IMG/VR virus record: IMGVR_UViG_3300008262_000463
Coordinates: 1 to 59,708 of that record
Origin: a virus
DNA: 59,708 bases
Strand: one strand, 5' to 3'
Part shown: positions 1,626-49,464 of the stretch, piece after piece
Numbering within the stretch: position 1 is the first letter of the stretch
Layout of the letters: every line of letters starts with the position of its first letter
Made by a program: the position numbers and the translations under genes
Notes under the pieces: model-generated
What the model was told of the DNA's origin: nothing
Database searches by the model: none
Seen by the model: only the letters and a program-made list of their open reading frames with translations

Positions 1626-3173
1626 TTAAACCGATTTCTTTCCGTAACCTTTTTCAAAGCCGTCTGGTGTGTCTGGTTTTCTGGCCAGTTGTGGATCAAT
1701 TTCCACATCATCACGCTTTTGACCGGTCATGGTTTTACCACCAGTCATAACGGCTTTTGCTTTAGGTCTTTTTCTGTCATCTCCTGCATTATCATCTTGT
1801 GACTGTTGTTTGTCACCTTTTTCAAAATCATACATATCTTCTTTCATATGTTTTCTTTTGTAGATGCTTTTGATAATGCGAGCAGACTTAGAATATTCTT
1901 TCTTCTCCATCTCATCAATCTGTTCAACTTCTTCATTCTTCATAGCAGCTTTACGGCGATCTATTTCTTTTTGCTGTGCTTCTATTTCTTTTTGAAGTCT
2001 CTTAGCTTCATCACCGTGTTCCTTTGCAGCTGCATCGAGTGAACGACCAGATAGTGCTTTGAATCTTGAACTAATTCTACCGTAAGCAGAAGATTCTTCC
2101 ATCTTACGAGATTCACGACCAATTGCTTTACTATAGTCTTGTGTAGATTTGTGTTCTGGTTTTGGTGGTGTAATTTCTTTGCCACTCAATACACTTTTTA
2201 ATCTAATGTTGTGACCACGAGCAGCATCTGAAGCTTGTCGTTTCATTGCATTTTGTTTATTGCGCTCTTCAATCTGTTCAATTTCTTCTTTGGCCATTGC
2301 CAAACCTTTTTCACGGCGTTTAATAATGTTTTGAGCCATATCTTTGTACTCACCAGATTTTGCGTGTGGTTTGAGCTGAGCAATTGTTTGTTTTGCTTTT
2401 TCTTTATATGCCGCTTTAGTTGCAGGACTAAGTTCATTTATTTGTGTTGATTCTTTATTCAATATTTGCCTATGATCTTTATCAACAACAATTCTGTGTT
2501 TGCTTATTAAAGACTTCAATATATCTTTTGACATTCTTCTTGTTGATGAATCAGATATACCAGAAACTTTTTTAATTGCACGATGAACAGCCGGCACAGA
2601 ACTCTTTTCTTCTGGTGAACTGTGTACACCCATAACTCTACTCAAATGTTGTTTAACATGATCGTGGTCTGATTGTGTTGCTGTGGGCAATTGATACACT
2701 TCTTTAATATTGGAAACAAACTCATAATCATCCATTGTTAAAGTGCCTTTGTCACGGATGCTAATTAACTTCTCAATAACTTTGTGTAGATCAGCATCAG
2801 ATTTAATATCTTCTCTTGCCAATTCTAACATACGAATAACAAGAGGAATATTTAATGTTACTGTATCTGTTTTATCTTTTGCTTCGTAAACTTCAATTGA
2901 TTCAAATTGATCTTTCGTATGATCTGATTTCCATTTCATGAACTCAGAAGATTTTGAATGTGCAACCTTAGTATTTTTAGGAACATATTCAGGATTAATT
3001 CCTCTCGATTTCAAATAACGAGATAACAAATCAGCTTCTGATGCACGAGCAGAAATTTCATCCAATTGTTCTTCACTAATACCGGCTTTTGCACCCCATG
3101 GATCAAGTGGATTTATTCCACTTTGACCTCTTGCTGGTTCAGGATTAATTCTAATTGCTTTTATTTTTTTCAT
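1626..3173 (-). CDS. Large charged late protein with repeated gp21-like cleavage motifs
   Basis: A 515-residue, very hydrophilic, Lys/Glu-rich protein without membrane segments. It contains motifs of the form EExEQI[D/E]E (about residues 296 and 417), plus QINELS and EEQLDEIS. Each holds an [I/L]-x-E triplet, the type of site cut by the T4 prohead protease gp21. A coiled-coil stretch (EAKRLQKEIEAQQKEIDRRK) is near residue 400. EEVEQIDE-containing proteins are common in T4-like marine phages and are usually listed as structural. I infer an internal head protein or a precursor cut into pieces. The start overlaps the upstream stop by four bases (3170-3173). Confidence 0.55.
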   Translation of the reverse strand: MKKIKAIRINPEPARGQSGINPLDPWGAKAGISEEQLDEISARASEADLLSRYLKSRGINPEYVPKNTKVAHSKSSEFMKWKSDHTKDQFESIEVYEAKDKTDTVTLNIPLVIRMLELAREDIKSDADLHKVIEKLISIRDKGTLTMDDYEFVSNIKEVYQLPTATQSDHDHVKQHLSRVMGVHSSPEEKSSVPAVHRAIKKVSGISDSSTRRMSKDILKSLISKHRIVVDKDHRQILNKESTQINELSPATKAAYKEKAKQTIAQLKPHAKSGEYKDMAQNIIKRREKGLAMAKEEIEQIEERNKQNAMKRQASDAARGHNIRLKSVLSGKEITPPKPEHKSTQDYSKAIGRESRKMEESSAYGRISSRFKALSGRSLDAAAKEHGDEAKRLQKEIEAQQKEIDRRKAAMKNEEVEQIDEMEKKEYSKSARIIKSIYKRKHMKEDMYDFEKGDKQQSQDDNAGDDRKRPKAKAVMTGGKTMTGQKRDDVEIDPQLARKPDTPDGFEKGYGKKSV

Positions 3174-4729
3174 TTTACTTTTGTTCTGTCTTTAATTGCT
3201 TCAAAAGCAGCCTTAGCGATTTTTGTAGTACGATTCATTGGTGTATCACATTGTGTTTCTTCTGGCACACAATTAGGAACTTTTTTGCCGCCTTTGTTTT
3301 TCATGCCAACCATTTGATAACCCTTCCAACAAGGATCACCACCTTTTACTTGTGTGTTTTCACCTTCTTGTACAGTTTTTTCTTTAGCAAGTTTGGTTGC
3401 TGTTGCATACATTACTGACTTAGCACGTTCACCGTAACGTTGTTTGAAACCTTGTAAACCTTTTTTCATACCTTTGACAATACGCTCTTTTTCTTGTGTT
3501 TCTGGTTCACTTAAAGTTCGTTCTGTTACAGATTCAACTTCTTCTTTAAAAGGATCTACACCTTTCGAATACATTTTAGATTTAGCTGTTTCCATTCCAT
3601 GTATTCTTTTCCAATCTTTTTTTGTACCAGATCTCATACCGAGTTTTTCACCTTTTGCTTTCATATCTTTTAAAGCTTTGTTGTGGTAGGATTTAAGAGT
3701 ATTAGTTGAAAGTTCGTCAATCTGTTCAACTTCTTCATTCATTTGTTTCTTGTCTTTAATATATCTAATTGGTGTTGATGAATGAACTCCTGCTGCGTCC
3801 ATTACATGACGAACAGCATCATTATGCGATTTATGGTCGTATTCCATTTCATCATTTCTTGCTACAGCGTGAGCAGTTTTTTTTGTTTTATTGTGAACAT
3901 TGTTTTCTGTATCACCAATAAGTTTTGGTTTTTCACCTGGTTTTTTATGATAAACTTTATAAGCGTGTTGTGTGTGGTTTTTACCAACTTCACCATAAGA
4001 ATCTTCACTTGAACCTTCGTGATATTTGTGTAGATATACTGTACCGTGCATAGCATTTTCATCAATCTGTTCAACTTCTTCACCCATTCTTTTCTTTAGA
4101 GAGTGTTCAGCTGTTGATTGAGCATCTTCTTTGTCATCGTGATAAGATACTGGTCCTTCACCCATGTGTTTACCATCTTTGAAGTGATGAACTTGGTATT
4201 CATTATACTCTGTGTCTTTGTACACTCTTGCAGTATGTTCACCTTCTCCATGTTTAGAAATTAAACGCTTGCCGGCAGTTAAACTTTCTTCTTTAACAGG
4301 TTTCATCGCCTGTTTCATTCCTTGTTTAGCGAGGTGTCTAGCAACAGAAAATTGAACACCAAATTTACCGGCTTTTGCTGATGGATTTTTCTTTACTGGA
4401 TCTGGAGTAAATGGGGGTTCATCTTTACTTGCATTTTTCGCATAACTATTCTCAATAATTTTTGCAATCGCTTCTTCACCATATGTTTCTTTTTTCTGTT
4501 TACGCAAAATATCAAAGTCTTGAGAATCAATCTTATTGTTCTTGTTTTTATCAATCTTGTGTTGATCGCCTTTTAATTCTTCTTTTACTTCTTTTTTGTT
4601 GCGGAGAAGTTCAAAGTCATGAGCATCGATTTTTTTATTTTTATTCATATCGATTTTATGCTGATCGCCTTTTAATGCTTCATTGACAGCATCGATCATA
4701 GATTGAGTTACTTTTGGTTTGGTGAACAT
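3170..4729 (-). CDS. Putative internal virion protein with tandem EF-hand-like loops
   Basis: The start is placed at 4729 (MFTKPKVTQS), which has a strong CGGAGAAG ribosome site; an earlier ATG at 4756 lacks one. The 519-residue protein has two EF-hand or dockerin-like calcium loops near the N-terminus (DMNKNKKIDAHDF and DKNKNNKIDSQDF), each preceded by LKGDQHKI. It has two copies of EEVEQIDE (followed by NAMHG and by LSTNTLKSY) and a C-terminal pair of cysteines in a CWKGY...VPNC motif that I recall from other phage virion proteins. The body is Lys/Glu/His-rich. The EEVEQIDE copies look like gp21 cleavage sites, so a cleaved, head-packaged protein is likely but unproven. Confidence 0.55.
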   Translation of the reverse strand: MFTKPKVTQSMIDAVNEALKGDQHKIDMNKNKKIDAHDFELLRNKKEVKEELKGDQHKIDKNKNNKIDSQDFDILRKQKKETYGEEAIAKIIENSYAKNASKDEPPFTPDPVKKNPSAKAGKFGVQFSVARHLAKQGMKQAMKPVKEESLTAGKRLISKHGEGEHTARVYKDTEYNEYQVHHFKDGKHMGEGPVSYHDDKEDAQSTAEHSLKKRMGEEVEQIDENAMHGTVYLHKYHEGSSEDSYGEVGKNHTQHAYKVYHKKPGEKPKLIGDTENNVHNKTKKTAHAVARNDEMEYDHKSHNDAVRHVMDAAGVHSSTPIRYIKDKKQMNEEVEQIDELSTNTLKSYHNKALKDMKAKGEKLGMRSGTKKDWKRIHGMETAKSKMYSKGVDPFKEEVESVTERTLSEPETQEKERIVKGMKKGLQGFKQRYGERAKSVMYATATKLAKEKTVQEGENTQVKGGDPCWKGYQMVGMKNKGGKKVPNCVPEETQCDTPMNRTTKIAKAAFEAIKDRTKVK

Positions 4730-4743
4730 TTTCTTCTCCGTTA

Positions 4744-5046
4744 TTAGCAGTTCCACTTGCGTAATGATTTGTTGATTCTTGAATCTGGATCTCTAGCAGT
4801 TTTAGCTGAGGTTAAACGCTTTTTCATTCCAGTCATTCTAGCACAGAATGATTTACGGCGATTAGCTGCCTTTGAGCCTGCTTTTAGTTTACTTGGCTTC
4901 GTTGTAACTGCCATAGAAAGCTTTGAACCTGGATTCTCACGGCGATACGATGCAATGCCTTTACGATTCAGACCACCTGATTCAGATTTGCCTTCTTTAC
5001 GTTGCCATGCGGCAGTTTCAGAAATGAATTCTTTAAACTTTAACAT
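4744..5046 (-). CDS. DUF6321-type small basic protein with capsid targeting N-terminus
   Basis: A 100-residue, strongly basic protein. The N-terminus MLKFKEFISE/TAAW matches the T4 internal-protein signal MKTYQEFIAE/A in length and in the [I/L]-x-E at positions 8-10. The rest (AAWQRKEGKSESGGLNRKG, RKSFCARMTGMKKRL, DPDSRINKSLRKWNC) is the conserved core I know as DUF6321, found in many tailed phages. Its conserved cysteines and basic residues suggest nucleic-acid binding, but no activity is known to me. It overlaps the upstream adenylyltransferase-kinase gene by 14 bases, so the two are translationally coupled. I infer packaging in the head. Confidence 0.7.
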   Translation of the reverse strand: MLKFKEFISETAAWQRKEGKSESGGLNRKGIASYRRENPGSKLSMAVTTKPSKLKAGSKAANRRKSFCARMTGMKKRLTSAKTARDPDSRINKSLRKWNC

Positions 5047-6889
5047 TTTTCTTCCTCAACAATTTAATTTTTCCGTATGTATCTGAAATCTTTTGCATAG
5101 GTTCTTTATTTGAAGAACCCCCAAGTACACCTGCAACACCCATATCGTTTGCACCAGGATCATCTATTGCTTCGTGGTATTGTTTCTTCTTATGTTTCTC
5201 ACCACGAATTGCATCTTTAGACTTTTGTTTATGTTTACCTGAACCTGGTCCTACTTTTTGTGAAGCGTGTGCTACTGGATTTCTATGCTTACGAAAATCT
5301 TTAAATTCTTTTTGTTCTCTGTAGGTAACATCGCCCATTCCTGACATAGGGTATACTGTTCCCTGTTGGCGAGTATCGTATTCTGGTCCTACTCCGCCGG
5401 TTCGTATCGCACCACTTGGGTTACGAACCAGACGTTTTAATTTCTCTTTTTCTTTGTCCCGCCGGAAGTTGGTTTCTTTTGGCTCTGGCTGGACTTCGAC
5501 TGTGGGCTGCGAGGCTTCGTGGTACGTTTTGAAGGTGTAACCGCCTGTGGCTTTGATGTCTCCGTCTCGGACATCATCTTTTTTGTTGAGTTTTCGCTGG
5601 AGCTGGATTCCTGGGAAGAGCTCGTTGACTCGACTGGTTTTACCTTCAGAAAGTCTATAATCTTTTTTAACATTTCTATATTCCTTAAATAACGTATTAA
5701 TATTTAATGATTTACGGCGTTCTAACCATTCTTGTGCAGTCTCACCGACAATCTTTGAATCCAAGAACTTACTGGTGGATTCATACACTTCATGTACATC
5801 TTCCTCTTTAATTTCTCCAGTATTATCGAAAACCACAAATTTGGAAAAGACTTCATTAAAGTATTTAGTATTTTCTTGTGATCGTAACCACTTGTCATGT
5901 CTCATGGACTCGACCATCATCCTTGACAATAATGAGTTTCTTTCACGACTGGTTTCATTTGTGGTATCAACAAAAATCATCATTGTTCCATACCCCAAAT
6001 CTTCTAGTTCTTCTTTGATCTGCATGATGCGGTCACGGTCATCAGCAGGACCATTGATAATCAAAGGACCACGATTTCTGATGGCTTCTCTACGATAATC
6101 TCTTGTTTGTTCTGAGAGTTTTTGTTTGTCACCGAGATATTCTTGTGCCTGTACAAGATTCAATTCAACAATTTTAGATTCTGCAATTGCTTCACGAATC
6201 ACCACATCTTTACCAGAACCTGGCCCACCGGTAACAAATATTGCTCTGAATTGACCACGGCTATTATCTTCATTCAAACCCATACCTTTTCTGGTATCAT
6301 GCATGAGTTCTTTTGCGTGTTTATCGTCAACATGAGCAGGAACACCTTGTCTAAAGGATGCAAAGTCACGATTCTTTGCGTGTTCTCTCATCTTGGTGCC
6401 TGACATACCTTCTGCACCTTCGGAATCTGGATCACGATGGCCAGCAGAGATAACAGTTATCTTTTTAAAGTTATATGGAACATGACCTTCTTTATTTGGT
6501 TTTCCATTGTATTTGTTTAAACTATCGTGAAATTCTTTTACACGGTCAGAACCAGCAACCACAACAAGATGATCGTGGCCTGCTTTACTAAGTTTTTCTG
6601 CATGGTGGAATATAGATGGTTGTTCTTTTGACGCAGCAACAAAATTTGTACCTGGAGAATATTTCTGTAAGTGCTTTATTTTTTGTTGTGCTGTTAATGG
6701 ATTCTTTTTATTATCTTGAGAATGTGAAGCAATAACTTCATGATGTGCATTTAAACGAGCTGCGGTCTCCCTTACCTTATCGATCATTTTTAAATGACCT
6801 GTGGTGGGAGGATTCATACGGCCAAAAGCAATAACTGCTGGCTTCTTAAATTCTTCTTGTTCTTGTATTATATCTTTAAATGACTTCAC
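5033..6889 (-). CDS. Nucleotidyltransferase (NMNAT-like) fused to a P-loop kinase; probable packaged enzyme
   Basis: A 618-residue protein. Residues 1-10 (MKSFKDIIQE) form a capsid targeting-like signal. Residues about 17-205 are a cytidylyltransferase-type domain: GRMNPPTTGH at 23-32 is the [HT]xGH site, and SGTKMR at 163-168 is the SxTxxR-type motif, as in nicotinamide-mononucleotide adenylyltransferases. Residues about 213-400 hold a P-loop kinase (GGPGSGKD, 221-228), possibly zeta-toxin or NadR-like. The C-terminal 200 residues are charged and unrecognised. NadR has the same adenylyltransferase-kinase order, so an NAD-related role is plausible; the substrate is not shown. The start overlaps the upstream stop by four bases. 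Confidence 0.7.
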   Translation of the reverse strand: MKSFKDIIQEQEEFKKPAVIAFGRMNPPTTGHLKMIDKVRETAARLNAHHEVIASHSQDNKKNPLTAQQKIKHLQKYSPGTNFVAASKEQPSIFHHAEKLSKAGHDHLVVVAGSDRVKEFHDSLNKYNGKPNKEGHVPYNFKKITVISAGHRDPDSEGAEGMSGTKMREHAKNRDFASFRQGVPAHVDDKHAKELMHDTRKGMGLNEDNSRGQFRAIFVTGGPGSGKDVVIREAIAESKIVELNLVQAQEYLGDKQKLSEQTRDYRREAIRNRGPLIINGPADDRDRIMQIKEELEDLGYGTMMIFVDTTNETSRERNSLLSRMMVESMRHDKWLRSQENTKYFNEVFSKFVVFDNTGEIKEEDVHEVYESTSKFLDSKIVGETAQEWLERRKSLNINTLFKEYRNVKKDYRLSEGKTSRVNELFPGIQLQRKLNKKDDVRDGDIKATGGYTFKTYHEASQPTVEVQPEPKETNFRRDKEKEKLKRLVRNPSGAIRTGGVGPEYDTRQQGTVYPMSGMGDVTYREQKEFKDFRKHRNPVAHASQKVGPGSGKHKQKSKDAIRGEKHKKKQYHEAIDDPGANDMGVAGVLGGSSNKEPMQKISDTYGKIKLLRKKNVKV

Positions 6890-8061
6890 TTTCTAACCCT
6901 TAATAAATTTGCTTTTGCAAACTCTGAACGATTGACCAACTTTGTTGGTTCTCCTGCATGATTTACAACAAATCCTTCTGGACCTGTTGGCTTATTATCT
7001 ATGTGATGTTCCAAACCGCCTTGGTGTTGTTCGAGTGTAGACACCATTAGATTTTTTGCTTTTTGTAAATGATCATGCATCTGCAAAAGGTTATTATAGT
7101 GTTTTTCATTTGCAGCAATATGATTTATATGTGTTTTTGCTTCTGCTTCTTTTCTTGACTGTGCAACAGGTGTTTTTAATTTTTCTGATTGCTTAACATA
7201 TTTTGATTGTATGTGTTTTGCAAGACCTTCGGCAGTTGGTGTTTCATCTGTTCTAACTGTATGGTTAATATATGTTGCTAAATGATTACCATCACCACGG
7301 TGCATTTCAGTTGCCTTATACATAGACTTTTTGTTTGCATCATGTATTTTCTTGGCTTCTTCCATGTGATGGTTAAAAGTCTTTTGATCAGCGTCAGAAT
7401 AGTGTACTTGTTTTGTGTCATGTGCTACAGATTTTGTCCACACATCAGGATGATTTGTGAAATGATGTACATCTGGATGAGAATCTGCTGACATTGTAGA
7501 AATATCATCACCATGATATTGTGTATGCACAACCACACCTAATTTTGATTTTCTAACTTTGTCTGCTTCTTCACCTTTGGCGGTGTATGTGATTGTATTG
7601 GGTGTAAAAGATACGCCTTTGTGTCCCTTGTCTTGTTTGTCACCCTCCGAGAACATAAGGTCGCCTTGATATACACCAGATTTTGGTGCAACTTTTTTCA
7701 AATGCACCAATGCAGAATTTAATTTTTCTGCAAGACCAGGTGCATGACCATGGTTCTTGGCTATGTCTTTTGAACTATAGTTGATTTTGGGATTTACATT
7801 AAATGCAGATTTACTGGCTACAAAAAATTTACCAGTTTTAGGGTGATGTCCGAACACAACGGAAGGAGATCCGTCATATTTCATGGTGAGTGCAGAACTT
7901 TCAGAACCAGATTTGATGTGTTCGTGGGCTTGATGGAGTGCGTTGTAGGCGTGGTCGAACCCTTCTTCTCCGTGGAGTAGGGGTCTATCTTCGGCATGAT
8001 GTATATGTTTGAGCTGCTTAGGCTCGGCTTCTTCTCTCAGAAAAGACAAAAAAGAATACAT
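6886..8061 (-). CDS. DUF6267-type, ligase-like nucleotidyltransferase with capsid targeting N-terminus
   Basis: The ATG at 8061 is preferred: it has an AAGGA ribosome site, whereas the longer frame needs a TTG at 8100. The 391-residue protein begins MYSFLSFLRE/EAEP, like the T4 capsid targeting signal. It then shows KYDGSPSVVFG (Lys61), matching motif I (KxDG) of covalent DNA/RNA ligases and capping enzymes, FFVASKSAF, VYQGDLMF (about 130-137, motif III-like) and LGVVVHTQYHG (about 174). I recall this family as DUF6267 in T4-like phages. A covalent nucleotidyl-lysine chemistry is an inference from the motifs; the substrate is unknown. It is first in the late operon from 8107. Confidence 0.65.
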   Translation of the reverse strand: MYSFLSFLREEAEPKQLKHIHHAEDRPLLHGEEGFDHAYNALHQAHEHIKSGSESSALTMKYDGSPSVVFGHHPKTGKFFVASKSAFNVNPKINYSSKDIAKNHGHAPGLAEKLNSALVHLKKVAPKSGVYQGDLMFSEGDKQDKGHKGVSFTPNTITYTAKGEEADKVRKSKLGVVVHTQYHGDDISTMSADSHPDVHHFTNHPDVWTKSVAHDTKQVHYSDADQKTFNHHMEEAKKIHDANKKSMYKATEMHRGDGNHLATYINHTVRTDETPTAEGLAKHIQSKYVKQSEKLKTPVAQSRKEAEAKTHINHIAANEKHYNNLLQMHDHLQKAKNLMVSTLEQHQGGLEHHIDNKPTGPEGFVVNHAGEPTKLVNRSEFAKANLLRVRK

Positions 8062-8106: not shown

Positions 8107-8114
8107 TATTTATA
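8107..8114 (-). promoter_or_regulatory. T4-type late promoter (TATAAATA)
   Basis: A perfect TATAAATA on the minus strand, about 46 bases before the ATG at 8061. It separates the glycosyltransferase operon from the run of five overlapping or closely spaced virion genes that follows, and it would express them late. Confidence 0.7.
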
Positions 8115-13648: not shown

Positions 13649-14938
13649 CTATTTTGCAATAATAAATTTACCAGAATCTTCTGTTCTAGATGTTATGTAT
13701 TTAAATAATTCCTGTATCAATCTATCTGATGGTGAAACATAATCTTGTGCATTTGAAATGTTTCTTTTATTTTTTTCCAACCATTCTATGAGTGTAGGAA
13801 AAACTTCATTTGTAACCAACATAGCACTCAAAGCACCACGCTCTTCATCAAATTCTGCTCTAGCCATTTTTTTAGCTTCTGGTTTTTTCAATCTTTTATC
13901 TTTTTCTTCCCATTCTTTTCGTAATTTTTCGGCTTGAACTTTATATTTTTCATTGACTTTTTTATAATCATTAAAAAGTTTTGTTGCTAATTGTTTATCG
14001 ATATATGAAACAATATCACAAAATATATTCCATGAACCAATAGAACCACCTCTTGCTTCCATGTCTCTACTTTCTAATTCGGCTTTCATGGTTGCCCTAG
14101 ATGCATCATGCCTAATCTTAATCATTTCACGATCAGATTTTGAAAATTTTATTTGTAAGTCTCTAGTTTGTGGTTGTTTTAAAGTATATTTTTTCCATGG
14201 TTGTTTTAATCCATGATATTGATATTTTAATATGGCTGTTTGTTCTTCTACTTTATCAAAGTTCACCTTTTTGATTGTTACAGTATTTGTTTGTTTCTTT
14301 AATGATATTGGTAATAGATCACCTGATGTTATAAGTTCACTAATCATGTTATTCATAATATCAAAACCATAGCTTTTACCACGACCAGTTACATATAAAT
14401 CTACATTTTCTTTTATTCGTTTTGTTGCTTTGTCTGTAGCAAAATATATGTCAGCTGGTGACCATTTGTTTACATCACCAAAAGCTGGAGCTGGTTTGTT
14501 TTTATTCGCTATCTTAAAAAGTGCTTCAATGTTTTTCATAACCACCTTATCACCACGGTAGTACCAAACATCACTAACATTAGGTTTCTTTGCAAATCCT
14601 GAGGAGATAGTTGTTATGTCCTCTACTAATTTTTTACCAATCAATGCTGAAGAAATATACCATGTTTTTTCTGTCATTAAGAAGCCTTCTATATCACCAT
14701 AAGGTATCTTCTGAGCACCAGTTGAAGCTTCAGTAAATTTATCATAGATAGACTGCAATGAATCATTCTTTGCCTTGAAAACACTTTTCCATTTTCTATC
14801 GAATTTAGAAAAATCATCCAATTCTTTATTTTTAGGATCTAAGAATTCACCTAGACTTTTTCCTTTGATTTGCAAATAATCTGCAATCGCACAAAAGAAG
14901 GCTTGTGATGATTCAGCTAGTGAGGTGGTATCGGCCAT
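13649..14938 (-). CDS. Conserved hypothetical protein, 429 aa
   Basis: A soluble protein of 429 residues that I do not recognise by function. Visible segments are VSDVWYYRGDKVVMKN, NKWSPADIYFATDKA (about 157-172), LYVTGRGKSYGFDIMNNMI, and LLPISLKKQTNTV (about 220-232), then a Lys/Glu-rich coiled stretch (LRKEWEEKDKRLKKPEAKK) near residue 340. The order of W-S-P-A-D, then K-rich PISLKK resembles a nuclease-like (PD-(D/E)xK) arrangement seen in some phage proteins, but I cannot confirm a catalytic site. A weak late-promoter-like box lies upstream at 14956. Confidence 0.5.
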   Translation of the reverse strand: MADTTSLAESSQAFFCAIADYLQIKGKSLGEFLDPKNKELDDFSKFDRKWKSVFKAKNDSLQSIYDKFTEASTGAQKIPYGDIEGFLMTEKTWYISSALIGKKLVEDITTISSGFAKKPNVSDVWYYRGDKVVMKNIEALFKIANKNKPAPAFGDVNKWSPADIYFATDKATKRIKENVDLYVTGRGKSYGFDIMNNMISELITSGDLLPISLKKQTNTVTIKKVNFDKVEEQTAILKYQYHGLKQPWKKYTLKQPQTRDLQIKFSKSDREMIKIRHDASRATMKAELESRDMEARGGSIGSWNIFCDIVSYIDKQLATKLFNDYKKVNEKYKVQAEKLRKEWEEKDKRLKKPEAKKMARAEFDEERGALSAMLVTNEVFPTLIEWLEKNKRNISNAQDYVSPSDRLIQELFKYITSRTEDSGKFIIAK

Positions 14939-39158: not shown

Positions 39159-39166
39159 TATTTATA
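39159..39166 (-). promoter_or_regulatory. Late promoter (TATAAATA) of the HNH gene
   Basis: Perfect TATAAATA on the minus strand, 18 bases before the ATG at 39141. The leader would be about 12 bases but contains AGGAG. Late expression of a mobile endonuclease, as known for T4 I-TevI, would limit its early toxicity; this is inferred. Confidence 0.55.
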
Positions 39167-44777: not shown

Positions 44778-46121
44778 TTACATCAGGTTCTTAACTGCAA
44801 AAATACGATAGTAGACGTTGCTACGTGGCGTAATCTGAGAAGTTCCAGCACCTGTTGCCAAAGGACCCTTAGCGAATGGGTTTGGTACCATTCCGTAACG
44901 AGTCTTGAAACCAATCTTTGGTTGGAAGGTAAACTGGTCAACAGCACGAACCATTTGCAGAGGAACGTATGGGCAGTAGAACAGACCTGCGTCATATGGA
45001 GAAGCACCTTTGTAACCGATTGTAACCAGTTCTTGGTTGCTTGTGTAACCACCGAAATATGGATCAATGTAAACCTTGATACGGCCATGCAACATACCAG
45101 CAAATGTGTTGCCTGTGTCGTCAACTTGCAGGTCAGCAGACAGAGCAGGTGTGTACTGAAGAACACCAGCCATTGCCATTGCAGAAGCAACATCTGAAGA
45201 AACGATCAGAACGTTACCTTTACCTCTACGAGTCTGTTTTGCAATAACGTTTGCATCACGCTCGATTTGGAAAATCAGACCTTTGAAACGCTCAACTGAC
45301 CAACGACCGTTAGAATCTGTGTCAAGGTCAAAATTACCAGCAGTAGTAACACCATACTGAGCACCTGCAACAGCAGACAGATAGATTGTACGGATAACTT
45401 CACGGTTGATCTCTGCAAGGATTTCTGTAGACAGGATGTTAGACAATTCTGTTTCAGCATCCAGACCATGAATTGCCTTCAGGTCTTGAGCGAGTTCAAG
45501 TGAGTACTCGGCTTTCAGAGCACGTGACTGAGCAGTTACGGAAACTTTCTCAATGCTAAATGCCATCTCTTTGAAAGCTGCGCCAGCGTCAGAACCAAGA
45601 GCTTCAGCAGTTGCTGTTGGCATACCAATACCAGTTGTAAATGCGTTAGCAGTCAAATCTGCGATTGGATTTGTTAGGATGTCATTATCTGGTGTTGTTG
45701 TACCACGGAAACCGTATGGGTTAGCAGCAGATGAAGCACCAGAAAATACTGTGTTTGCCTCATTGTAGAATGCCTCACCACCACCTTGTGTAGCGTAACG
45801 AGCACGCATTGCGAAAATCAGACCTGTTGGACCTGTCATTGGCTGAACGCCAGCAACATCATACGCAATCAGGTTTGGCAGCGCACGGCGAACCAAGCTA
45901 ATCAAGATTGGATCAAAGTTCTGAATGCCAGAACCAGTAACGTTTGTTGGAGCAGATGCAGTTGCCTCCATCAAAGACATTCTGTCTTGATTCATTGCTT
46001 GTTGTTGATTCTCCAATACGAGAGCTGTAACAGCTTTCTTATATGGATCTTTAATAGAATCCAACTCTGGATGCTCCAGAACTGGCTTCCATTTGGATTG
46101 AAGTTCTTCTGTTAAGTACAT
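44778..46121 (-). CDS. 23: Major capsid protein gp23
   Basis: A 447-residue protein (T4: 521), HK97-like. The N-terminal about 52 residues are a scaffolding peptide. SLME/ATASAPTNVTG (cut expected between E52 and A53) is the gp21 site. Then comes the conserved core: NFDPILISLVRRALPNLIAY, GVQPMTGPTGLIFAMRARYA, AMAGVLQYTPALS and QFTFQPKIGFKTRYGMVPNP. The ribosome site is AAAAGGAAA. A strong terminator follows. The [L]-x-E/A site here sets the local gp21 specificity used in the findings. Confidence 0.95.
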   Translation of the reverse strand: MYLTEELQSKWKPVLEHPELDSIKDPYKKAVTALVLENQQQAMNQDRMSLMEATASAPTNVTGSGIQNFDPILISLVRRALPNLIAYDVAGVQPMTGPTGLIFAMRARYATQGGGEAFYNEANTVFSGASSAANPYGFRGTTTPDNDILTNPIADLTANAFTTGIGMPTATAEALGSDAGAAFKEMAFSIEKVSVTAQSRALKAEYSLELAQDLKAIHGLDAETELSNILSTEILAEINREVIRTIYLSAVAGAQYGVTTAGNFDLDTDSNGRWSVERFKGLIFQIERDANVIAKQTRRGKGNVLIVSSDVASAMAMAGVLQYTPALSADLQVDDTGNTFAGMLHGRIKVYIDPYFGGYTSNQELVTIGYKGASPYDAGLFYCPYVPLQMVRAVDQFTFQPKIGFKTRYGMVPNPFAKGPLATGAGTSQITPRSNVYYRIFAVKNLM

Positions 46122-46152: not shown

Positions 46153-47340
46153 TTATTTAACCAAAGTTTGTGAAATTACTTTAGTATAAGCTTCCATCAA
46201 AGGATCGACAGAAGTTGTTGGCTTCTTATCTTCTTCAATAGGAGTTTCGTCATTTAAATCTGATGAATCTGCAACCTTAACTTCTGCCTTGAAATATGAC
46301 TCTTTCAAAGTATTCATTTTGGTAACAAATTCTTCTTCGGTAGTGTACTCAACACCCTCTGCGAGTGATTTTAGTTTTTCTACCTGGGTTTGAGTCAGGC
46401 CTTCACACGCTGTGTAGATAGCCTCAACTTTTTTCTTCTCATTCAATTCTTTTTGAAGTTCGATACCACGATTAATTTGCTCATTGAGTGACTCTTCCAA
46501 CTCACCAACTTTACCGGTAAGTTCACCAACGATATCAACTTTATCTTCTGGAATGTCGATGTAATGATCTTCAAACAACTGCTTCAGACCACCAATGAAG
46601 TCTTCGGTAATTTCAGCACGGAGACCTTGCTCGATTGCAACTTCATTGTCTTTCATCCATTCTTCGACCATATAGTTTAGATAGTCATCAATCTTAGATG
46701 CCAAATCTTCTTTAACTTGTTCGATTGCTGCTTCGAATTGTTCTGCCAGTTGTGCTTCTGCTTCAGCAATAACTTCTTCTGCACGAGCAATAACTGCTGC
46801 TTCGAAAATTGTGGAAGCTTTCTGAACAAATTCTTCTGAAAGATTTTCACCAGAAAGAAGTGCATCAATATCTTCTTTCATTTTTTCTTTGTTCATCATT
46901 TTCTTGATGAGAGCTTTATCTTGTGCCTCATCTTCATGCTTTTCTTCTTTTTCTTCAGCAACTACTTCTTCTTCGGTTTCTGTTTCTTCACCGTAAGATT
47001 GGAATGTAGCGCCTGGATTCTTTTCAAATTTCTGTTTAGCGGCTTTACCTTCTGGCTGCTCTACAGAACCAGTTTGACCTGGTTGACCAGTAATTTTCTT
47101 TGCTGGCTCGGAACCAACTGGTGGTGTTGCACCTGGTGGTGTTGCTTGTGGTGTACCTTTGGTTGCATCTGGACCTGCATCGGTTGTTTTGGTAACTTCT
47201 GTACCAATATCACCAACTTCTTTAGTACCGTAAGCAACATCGCCGGACAATTTTTCTGATTTATCTTGGCCACCCTTTTTGGATGCAACAGAGGCATTCA
47301 GAATTTCTTTAGCGGCTTCAGACAGATTAAATTTTGCCAT
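46153..47340 (-). CDS. 22: Prohead scaffold core protein gp22
   Basis: A 395-residue protein (T4: 269; marine ones are longer). An Ala/Pro/Gly/Thr-rich low-complexity stretch covers about 50-105, and an acidic coiled-coil body (EAEAQLAEQFEAAIEQVKED, LEESLNEQINRGIELQKELN) follows. It fills the prohead and is degraded by gp21 before packaging. Late promoter TATAAATA at 47369 precedes it. Position between gp21 and gp23 is as in T4. Confidence 0.85.
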   Translation of the reverse strand: MAKFNLSEAAKEILNASVASKKGGQDKSEKLSGDVAYGTKEVGDIGTEVTKTTDAGPDATKGTPQATPPGATPPVGSEPAKKITGQPGQTGSVEQPEGKAAKQKFEKNPGATFQSYGEETETEEEVVAEEKEEKHEDEAQDKALIKKMMNKEKMKEDIDALLSGENLSEEFVQKASTIFEAAVIARAEEVIAEAEAQLAEQFEAAIEQVKEDLASKIDDYLNYMVEEWMKDNEVAIEQGLRAEITEDFIGGLKQLFEDHYIDIPEDKVDIVGELTGKVGELEESLNEQINRGIELQKELNEKKKVEAIYTACEGLTQTQVEKLKSLAEGVEYTTEEEFVTKMNTLKESYFKAEVKVADSSDLNDETPIEEDKKPTTSVDPLMEAYTKVISQTLVK

Positions 47341-47368: not shown

Positions 47369-47376
47369 TATTTATA
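47369..47376 (-). promoter_or_regulatory. Late promoter (TATAAATA) of gp22-gp23
   Basis: Perfect TATAAATA on the minus strand, 29 bases before the gp22 ATG, within a 37-base gap after gp21. AAGGAG follows. Confidence 0.7.
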
Positions 47377-47377
47377 A

Positions 47378-48025
47378 TTAAAGTTTTTTAATGAAGTTTT
47401 CAAATATGCGTAGACTTACTTTTTCGATATCCTGTCTTGAAGCCTGTTTGACTTCTTTTATTGCTCTCGAATGATCTACTTCGGTCCAAACGCCATCTAC
47501 TAACATCCATTCTTTACCTTCCATGATACCTTGTACAAATGCACCTGGTGCGGAAGGATCTGCTACAATATCTGCCGCTGTGGCTAGATAAAAATCGGAT
47601 TGAACAACATTAATACCTTCTTTGTTCATTTTTAAAGAACCCATACCTCTTGACGATACACCTAATTGTGCGCCACCTTCAATAAGACTTCTGGCGATAT
47701 TACCCATAGGTGTGTCTAAGATTTTTGCTTTACCGACCCATTGTGTACCATCTTCTCTCAATGATACAATCATGTGAGATACACGATCAAGATTAATTGT
47801 TGGTGTTTCTGGATGTCCTAATTCACCAAACGCACGCTTCTTGTCGATGTATTCCTCTGTATATCGAGCGACCTCTTTTCTCATGGTATTGTATTCGTAC
47901 AGTCTACCATTTCGATTTTTCTTTTCTGCAACTAGAAAAGGTCCTTCGATATGCAAAGCCTTTTTGCCATCTGATTCTTCAACCAGATAACTAACTGTTT
48001 CGGTAATTTCTTTGATGAGTTTCAT
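47378..48025 (-). CDS. 21: Prohead maturation protease gp21
   Basis: A 215-residue serine protease (T4: 212). FGELGHPETPTINLDRVSHM (about 66-85) holds the catalytic His region; GGAQLGVSSRGMGSL holds the Ser; a C-terminal Asp-rich segment follows. It cleaves gp22, gp23 and the internal proteins at [L/I]-x-E sites during head maturation. Its substrates in this window probably include gp23, gp68 and the proteins at 1626-8061. Confidence 0.9.
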   Translation of the reverse strand: MKLIKEITETVSYLVEESDGKKALHIEGPFLVAEKKNRNGRLYEYNTMRKEVARYTEEYIDKKRAFGELGHPETPTINLDRVSHMIVSLREDGTQWVGKAKILDTPMGNIARSLIEGGAQLGVSSRGMGSLKMNKEGINVVQSDFYLATAADIVADPSAPGAFVQGIMEGKEWMLVDGVWTEVDHSRAIKEVKQASRQDIEKVSLRIFENFIKKL

Positions 48026-48027
48026 CT

Positions 48028-48447
48028 TTATAATCCCATTGATGACCGTCTACGCATAGTAAGACTTCTTTTTCTTATAGATTGTCTAAGCTTAGCACGG
48101 CGTTTAAATTTACTTCTTCTTGCTGCCAACTTTCGGTTTCTACGCTCAGCAGGTGTCATTCTTACCAACTTGCCACCTCTCGTTGTATAACCTTTTATGG
48201 CTGACAACTTTTTACGTCTTTGTACAACTATACGACCTTTTGAATTTCTTCTAAAACGAACTTTTATTACTTTTGTTCGTCCCATTTTCATAACATTTGC
48301 TTCATCTAAACCATCAAACATAGACAAAGCAATTTCAGCTTTTTTATGAGTTAACTTATCATCTGCCAACTCATCTATTTTTTTCTGCAATATTTCTTTT
48401 GCTTCTAAAACATTGCCTTCCAAAATTTTAGAAATAAAATCTTTCAT
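48028..48447 (-). CDS. 68: Prohead core protein gp68-like, with basic C-terminus
   Basis: A 139-residue protein. N-terminus MKDFISKILE/GNVLEAKEIL has the [I/L]-x-E at positions 8-10 as in capsid targeting signals and the GNVLEAKE start seen in prohead core proteins. Residues about 35-55 are acidic-helical. From about 58 the chain is extremely basic (KVIKVRFRRNSKGRIVVQRR, RRSKFKRRAKLRQSIRKRSL), which suggests DNA binding inside the head. Location between gp20/gp67 and gp21 is that of T4 gp68 (141 residues). Confidence 0.7.
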   Translation of the reverse strand: MKDFISKILEGNVLEAKEILQKKIDELADDKLTHKKAEIALSMFDGLDEANVMKMGRTKVIKVRFRRNSKGRIVVQRRKKLSAIKGYTTRGGKLVRMTPAERRNRKLAARRSKFKRRAKLRQSIRKRSLTMRRRSSMGL

Positions 48448-49456: not shown

Positions 49457-49464
49457 TATTTATA
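49457..49464 (-). promoter_or_regulatory. Late promoter (TATAAATA) of gp67-gp21
   Basis: Perfect TATAAATA on the minus strand, overlapping the end of gp20, 20 bases before the ATG at 49437. Would produce a transcript starting with the prohead core genes. Confidence 0.65.

Follow-up and report, generated by a model that had tools for sequence, protein, structure and literature searches.

Three consecutive genes of a freshwater T4-like phage encode candidate head-packaged proteins with IPIII-type capsid targeting sequences

The sequence studied here, referred to as the window, comprises positions 1-59,708 of the 59.7 kb virus record IMGVR_UViG_3300008262_000463 and is that of a freshwater T4-like phage that encodes gp23, the gp21 protease and gp22. 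Three consecutive open reading frames (ORFs) of the window, coding for a DUF6267 protein, a nucleotidyltransferase-kinase and a DUF6321 protein, all begin with a short N-terminal propeptide, here called the tag, that ends in [L/I]-x-E. It is very likely that the three genes make up a late operon and that each of their products bears a cleavable capsid targeting sequence of the kind found on T4 IPIII, by which it would be packaged, cut by gp21 and ejected. Packaging, as judged from homologues and from statistics, is strongly supported, and for the window phage we infer cleavage at the Glu residues of the tags, ejection, its timing and an early role. In the proposed mechanism, F4 and F7 would attach the protein to the prohead core, where gp22 is the expected partner, gp21 would cleave after Glu10, and the mature domain would stay with the DNA inside the head until its ejection at infection. 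In the host it may contribute to early takeover, for example through NAD metabolism, metabolism of nucleic-acid ends or counter-defence.

The tagged genes and the head-maturation genes

The three tagged ORFs are as follows, with a slash marking the predicted cut here and below.

6886..8061, minus strand: DUF6267 protein, 391 aa, with ligase-like motifs (PF19782, E=3.3e-94); ATG at 8061; tag MYSFLSFLRE/E (8061-8032)
5033..6889, minus strand: NadD-like nucleotidyltransferase with P-loop kinase, 618 aa (PF01467, E=1.3e-7); GTG start at 6889; tag MKSFKDIIQE/Q (6889-6860)
4744..5046, minus strand: DUF6321 protein, 100 aa (PF19846, E=1.3e-18); ATG at 5046; tag MLKFKEFISE/T (5046-5017)

A cognate gp21-type S77 protease is encoded in the same genome, together with other genes of head maturation.

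47378..48025, minus strand: gp21 prohead protease, S77 (PF03420, E=6.5e-31; phrog_207, E=2.9e-77)
48028..48447, minus strand: gp68-like prohead core protein, MKDFISKILE/G (weak phrog_1064 match, E=0.011, residues 1-44)
44778..46121, minus strand: gp23 major capsid protein (PF07068, E=4.6e-141)
46153..47340, minus strand: gp22 scaffold, prohead core (PF25623, E=5.4e-71)

A sequence-only reading of this DNA had pointed to the N-termini of the three proteins and of the gp68-like protein, together with SLME/A in gp23, and all of these are found in the window sequence. The tag of the nucleotidyltransferase-kinase reads as had been given, and its initiator codon was corrected to GTG. The gp68-like N-terminus had likewise been taken for a tag; the cleavage half of the motif is there, and the claim fails at position 7, which is Lys instead of a hydrophobic residue. 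The predicted cut in gp23, RMSLME/ATAS, falls after Glu52 (codon 45968-45966), and the N-terminus of gp21 itself, MKLIKEITE/T, likewise matches the cut site. That the tags are an artefact of start-codon choice was ruled out, since homologues begin at the same residue with ATG.

Frequency and conservation of the motif

The motif was defined by a strict regular expression (M, one or two residues, F/Y, two residues, F/I/L, a hydrophobic residue, any residue, E) and its background was taken from 2,349 gene N-termini of 14 T4-like genomes. It was found in 27 of these, as compared to 1.74 ± 1.25 in shuffled N-termini (maximum 6 in 400 runs), and chance occurrence is ruled out by this difference (27 against 1.7). 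When shifted ten residues inward it gave 0 matches in the same 2,349 proteins. At the shuffle-derived chance rate, the probability that three given consecutive genes are all tagged is about 4e-10. By summed counts, Glu follows the fixed hydrophobic part in 29 of 87 N-termini versus 5 of 56 internal Met contexts. Applied to T4, the strict expression picks out exactly two genes, each with the internal protein (IP) signal MKTYQEFIAE.

Alignment of homologue N-termini bore out [I/L]-x-E at positions 8-10 as conserved. The strict motif is kept in 42 of 43 distinct DUF6267 N-termini (≥45% identity); F4, F7, L/I8 and E10 are each present in 42 of the 43, and positions 2, 5, 6, 9 and 12-17 are variable. 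The codons for F4, F7, L8 and E10 vary synonymously and the residues remain unchanged. In the T4 IPIII signal, targeting has been assigned mainly to residues 4 and 7 and processing to residues 8 and 10 (review, PMC9026906). The positions conserved in the DUF6267 alignment coincide with these four, assigned by mutagenesis of IPIII. The strict expression is matched by 38 of 45 nucleotidyltransferase homologues, in which the core is looser (for example MKSFLELVEE); F4 is kept in 43 of 45, E10 in 41 of 45 and L/I at position 7 in 38 of 45. Distant homologues of this family carry the variant tags MRFSDFLQE, MKFKDFINE and MKFSEFLRE.

Putative late promoter

The motif TATAAATA, the T4 late promoter core, is found ahead of the operon.

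8107..8114, minus strand: TATAAATA, core of a T4-type late promoter, 46 nt ahead of the first start codon of the operon (DUF6267)

Among 42 distinct homologous loci, 31 have the motif in the 90 nt upstream. There is no TATAAATA ahead of the nucleotidyltransferase gene, the GTG of which overlaps the DUF6267 stop. The count over the whole window shows no excess (6 found, 6.3 expected); the argument for late expression is one of position and conservation, and on these grounds the late expression proposed earlier appears to be supported. Other minus-strand boxes are at 47369-47376, upstream of gp22; at 49457-49464, upstream of a 78-aa ORF that follows the portal gene; and at 39159-39166, upstream of the ORF at 39141-38548.

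Virion proteomes of related cyanophages

The cytidylyltransferase T4-GC190 was detected in purified virions of S-SM1 (PMC3037559), the cytidylyltransferase ORF154 and ORF137 in those of S-CREM2 (PMC10665884, Table 3), the nucleotidyltransferase homologue SSZBM1_140 in those of S-SZBM1 (PMC9146016, Table 1) and an NMNAT in those of S-SCSM1 (PMC9602691). All four of these virion-detected nucleotidyltransferases are tagged; their N-termini read MKKFSAFLNE/A, MKNFSSFLTE/A, MRFRQFIIE/A and MKSFLQFLKE/A. S-CREM2 ORF137 and SSCSM1_29, the latter labelled a virion protein in the S-SCSM1 record, have DUF6321 at their C-termini. The common tag, taken with the virion detection of two of the three families, suggests a shared route of protein delivery into the host.

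In the S-CREM2 proteome the tag is associated with virion detection. Its strict-tag genes, which code for an S-adenosylmethionine (SAM) hydrolase (MKDFDSFLEE), a kinase (MKRFDAFLTE), ORF136 (MQTFSMFFSE) and the cytidylyltransferase, are in the virion list in 4 of 4 cases versus 46 of the 200 remaining gene calls (p=0.0033); with the known structural genes removed, the comparison is 4 of 4 versus 23 of 177 (p=0.00041). ORF13 (MKDLHSFLTE) is also in the list. The tag offers a rule for predicting virion content.

Several observations weigh against packaging by the tag. The cyanophage DUF6267 proteins of S-SZBM1 and S-CRM01 are untagged, the former (MAKNTHLEHLEDD) is not in the S-SZBM1 virion list, and the accessible literature holds neither a virion report of any DUF6267 protein nor peptide evidence of a cut at the predicted Glu. 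Two tagged proteins of 105 aa, SSZBM1_191 and SSCSM1_30, are missing from the published virion sets. The nucleotidyltransferase homologues of L089 and L126 (MKSFLEKLESD) and of HTVC008M (MKTLKELLRK) have no Glu10. Lastly, the S-CREM2 authors allow for carry-over of abundant proteins (PMC10665884). Head packaging of the enzyme set, as first proposed, is well supported through homologues of two of its three families in published virions and through the predictive value of the tag in S-CREM2; for DUF6267 it is a prediction.

If the tag does bring these proteins to the prohead, it could do so for head assembly, as in gp67 and gp68, the proteins then being cut and mostly expelled with no useful delivery to the host. 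In T4, gp67 and gp68 bear such a site as well and are degraded (PMC9026906), and few peptides were reported in S-CREM2 for ORF154 (3) and ORF137 (4). However, the SAM hydrolase and the kinase of S-CREM2 gave 19 and 21 unique peptides, homologues persist in mature CsCl-purified virions, and in the tagged proteins large folded enzyme domains follow a single N-terminal site without clusters of internal sites, so we regard a purely assembly-related role as improbable. It is more improbable still that virion detection reflects contamination by highly expressed cytosolic proteins and that the motif serves otherwise, for example as an amphipathic helix for interactions within the infected cell: the carry-over raised by the S-CREM2 authors would fit, as would S-CBWM1, termed non-T4 (PMC10665884), whose virion-reported NMNAT has no T4-type tag, but the tag is associated with virion detection in S-CREM2, the exact T4 targeting and processing positions are conserved, the tag tracks S77 and the predicted cut falls exactly at a domain border.

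Related arrangements were seen in other records. SSCSM1_30 (L202, 4216-4536; MKTFKQFMSE/SVNISGDFNGN) and SSZBM1_191 (L201, 45312-45629; MKSFKSFLSE/SVNISGDFNGN) have perfect tags. The Cas9-like nuclease in the S-CREM2 virion list, ORF12 (L211, 7704-10313, minus strand), has a tag, PLRFASFMAE/A, that is offset by about 15 residues and stands after an RWSxW motif; similar starts (GFSSFLKE/A, GFSNFLKE/A and GFSSFIAE/A) are found in g128 of S-CRM01 and in its as yet unassigned counterparts in three further cluster C phages (the last ORFs of L265, L266 and L267). S-CRM01 (L264, 5206-9149) has five consecutive genes with IPIII-like tags, coding for a kinase (MISFDQFLSE), a cytidylyltransferase (MKLFNQFFKE) and three hypothetical proteins, beside its untagged DUF6267 gene, and we regard this stretch as a cargo island partly syntenic with the window. 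S-CRM01 virions have been reported to contain a protein kinase that is a homologue of the S-CREM2 one (PMC10665884). In the window itself, a 429-aa ORF without a strict tag (13649-14938, minus strand) is distantly homologous (27% identity, E=1e-11) to SSCSM1_90 of S-SCSM1, which is labelled a virion protein.

The site before DUF6321 and the presence of S77

Comparison of 92 distinct sequence contexts of DUF6321 showed that the conserved domain starts exactly at the predicted cut. A [LIVMF]-x-E lies ≤3 residues before the domain in 38 of the 92; in five more (S-SM1, Syn9, S-SZBM1, S-CREM2 and L143) a Glu is present there that does not fit the full consensus as scored; the remaining 49 have no such site and start with MARTAAW, MAKTPAW or SGGTPAW. 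Where a record has both DUF6321 and S77, Glu stands before the domain in 12 of 12 cases (the window; contigs G007, G015, G025, G026 and G027; isolates S-SM1, S-CREM2, S-SZBM1, S-SCSM1, P-SSM2 and Syn9). Four complete genomes without S77 (HTVC035P, P-SCSP1k, Skadi-2 and HTVC028P) were used as the control because short non-T4 contigs are fragments, and in these the Glu site precedes DUF6321 in 0 of 4. This split of 12 of 12 versus 0 of 4 is one in 1,820 arrangements. In the podovirus P-SCSP1k (L204) the signal-less DUF6321 gene (259-513) comes directly after the major capsid gene, and DUF6321 may therefore be a virion protein in phages without gp21 too.

Properties of the cargo proteins

The structural model of the DUF6267 protein has a pLDDT of 87, and the tag region is disordered in it, with residues 9-17 below 50, which fits what is expected of a removable tag. 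The protein keeps the KxDG, EGxV and motif V lysine signatures, with K61, D63, G64, E362, G363, V365 and K374 invariant in 24 sequences. A fold search placed a tRNA ligase and a DNA ligase adenylation domain among its top matches, which were non-significant (E 0.19-0.6, TM 0.16), and a search of PDB sequences with the DUF6267 profile gave only weak, apparently unrelated matches. The nucleotidyltransferase has the motif FGRMNPPTTGH, of the HxGH/TxGH type, with G31 and H32 invariant. Its 618-aa model consists of a NadD-like domain and a polynucleotide/adenylate-kinase-like domain (fold matches with E about 1e-5 to 1e-4, NadD structures being among the top ones at about 5e-5 to 3e-4) and a C-terminal third that is modelled at low confidence; the family profile found no match among PDB sequences. 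NAD supply, nucleic-acid-end metabolism or repair, and counter-defence are our guesses at what such cargo might do early in infection.

Comparison with known systems

T4 IPI, IPII and IPIII have, like the window proteins, a ten-residue tag ending in [L/I]-x-E with an aromatic residue at position 4 and a hydrophobic one at position 7; the cognate S77 protease, the gp22 core and the gp23 site are encoded in the same genome in both cases, and the IP genes are late, as those of the window would be. Unlike the T4 IPs, the candidate cargo of the window is made up of large enzymes and a basic DUF6321 domain, the mature parts are unrelated in sequence, and there is candidate polyprotein cargo without a T4 IP counterpart. 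The virion NMNATs or cytidylyltransferases of S-SM1 (T4-GC190), S-SCSM1, S-SZBM1 and S-CREM2 share a homologous domain and the same kind of tag with the window enzyme, which in addition has the P-loop kinase domain and a long disordered C-terminal part. The cyanophage gp114 / T4-GC119 family, with S-CREM2 ORF137 and SSCSM1_29 as its virion members, has the same DUF6321 domain with Glu directly before it; in that family the domain is the C-terminal part of a long modular protein, whereas the window encodes it as a tagged ORF of its own next to a modular protein. In phages of the phiKZ/SPN3US type many packaged proteins are likewise cut after Glu by a gp21-like prohead protease in head maturation and then ejected. 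The phiKZ system differs in its consensus, S/A-x-E (PMC9026906), and in phage lineage, and no ten-residue IPIII-like tag has been described for this type.

The papers on cyanophage virion NMNATs (PMC3037559, PMC9602691, PMC9146016 and PMC10665884) offer no mechanism for packaging and make no mention of the tag. In the open-access literature no paper names DUF6267 or DUF6321, and a search for capsid targeting sequence with cyanophage returned only the T4 review; any claim of novelty is provisional because the literature covered was open-access papers. Several cyanophage studies found enzymes in purified virions and could not tell by what route these had entered or whether they were contamination; the tag offers a mechanism. 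Ten residues suffice to flag genes annotated as hypothetical as candidates for injected proteins.

Candidate polyproteins downstream

Downstream of the tagged genes, two ORFs (4756-1626) together have seven acidic junctions, three in the first and four in the second; for the second ORF each coordinate marks the final base of a Glu codon.

3170..4756, minus strand: candidate polyprotein, 519 aa from 4729 or 528 aa from 4756; junctions EEVEQIDE/ (4081-4058), EEVEQIDE/ (3736-3713) and EEVESVTE/ (3544-3521)
1626..3173, minus strand: candidate polyprotein, 515 aa; junctions SEEQLDE/ (3057), ESTQINE/ (2433), EEIEQIEE/ (2265) and EEVEQIDE/ (1911)

These ORFs, which the sequence-only reading had passed over in this connection, are probably, to judge from their sequences, polyproteins of small modules that gp21 would cut at internal EEVEQIDE-type sites. 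The first has modules in common with the gp114-type DUF6321 proteins of cyanophages. In relatives, what precedes a DUF6321 or CWxGY module is in some cases an N-terminal tag and in others an internal acidic [ILV]-[DE]-E site; two examples are given, which L094, L095, L034 and L081 resemble in arrangement.

L085: MKSFKTYITE/RCWPGYK...EEEQIDE/VAAW
L090: MKTFKAFISE/EVELLDE/...EEVEQVDE/RCWSGY...EEQQIDE/VAAW

The repeats may instead be linkers or interaction motifs and not cut sites, in which case the three upstream tags would still be genuine. Neither the 519-aa nor the 515-aa ORF has a strict N-terminal tag. Generic [LIVM]xE sites in the two ORFs are not significantly enriched over shuffles (P=0.20 and 0.09), and the argument for polyproteins therefore draws on the exchange of modules between contexts and on the specific motif. 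Against linkers, modules that stand behind an N-terminal tag in one phage stand behind an internal EExE[IL][DE]E site in another, and the 14 T4-like genomes contain 25 copies of the junction motif versus 1.1 in shuffles and 2 in reversed proteins, with 0 in 235 kb of non-T4 contigs. We therefore find the linker explanation somewhat doubtful. No EEVEQIDE-type junctions are present in T4, and polyprotein cargo cut by a head protease is not described in the searchable, open-access literature.

A wider reading is slightly favoured, namely that environmental T4-like phages have a general cargo code in which an IPIII-type tag loads enzymes or polyproteins, gp21 frees them at the N-terminal and EEVEQIDE-type sites, and each phage injects its own set. 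Under such a code the cargo would include NadD-like enzymes, kinases, the SAM hydrolase, the Cas9-like nuclease and DUF6267, plus many module peptides.

The alternative GTG start of the first candidate polyprotein at 4756 adds MELLITE/KK, itself a possible site. From its start at 4729 the protein (3170-4729) opens with two dockerin/EF-hand-like repeats (GDQHKIDMNKNKKIDAHDF and GDQHKIDKNKNNKIDSQDF; PF00404, E=4.5e-5).

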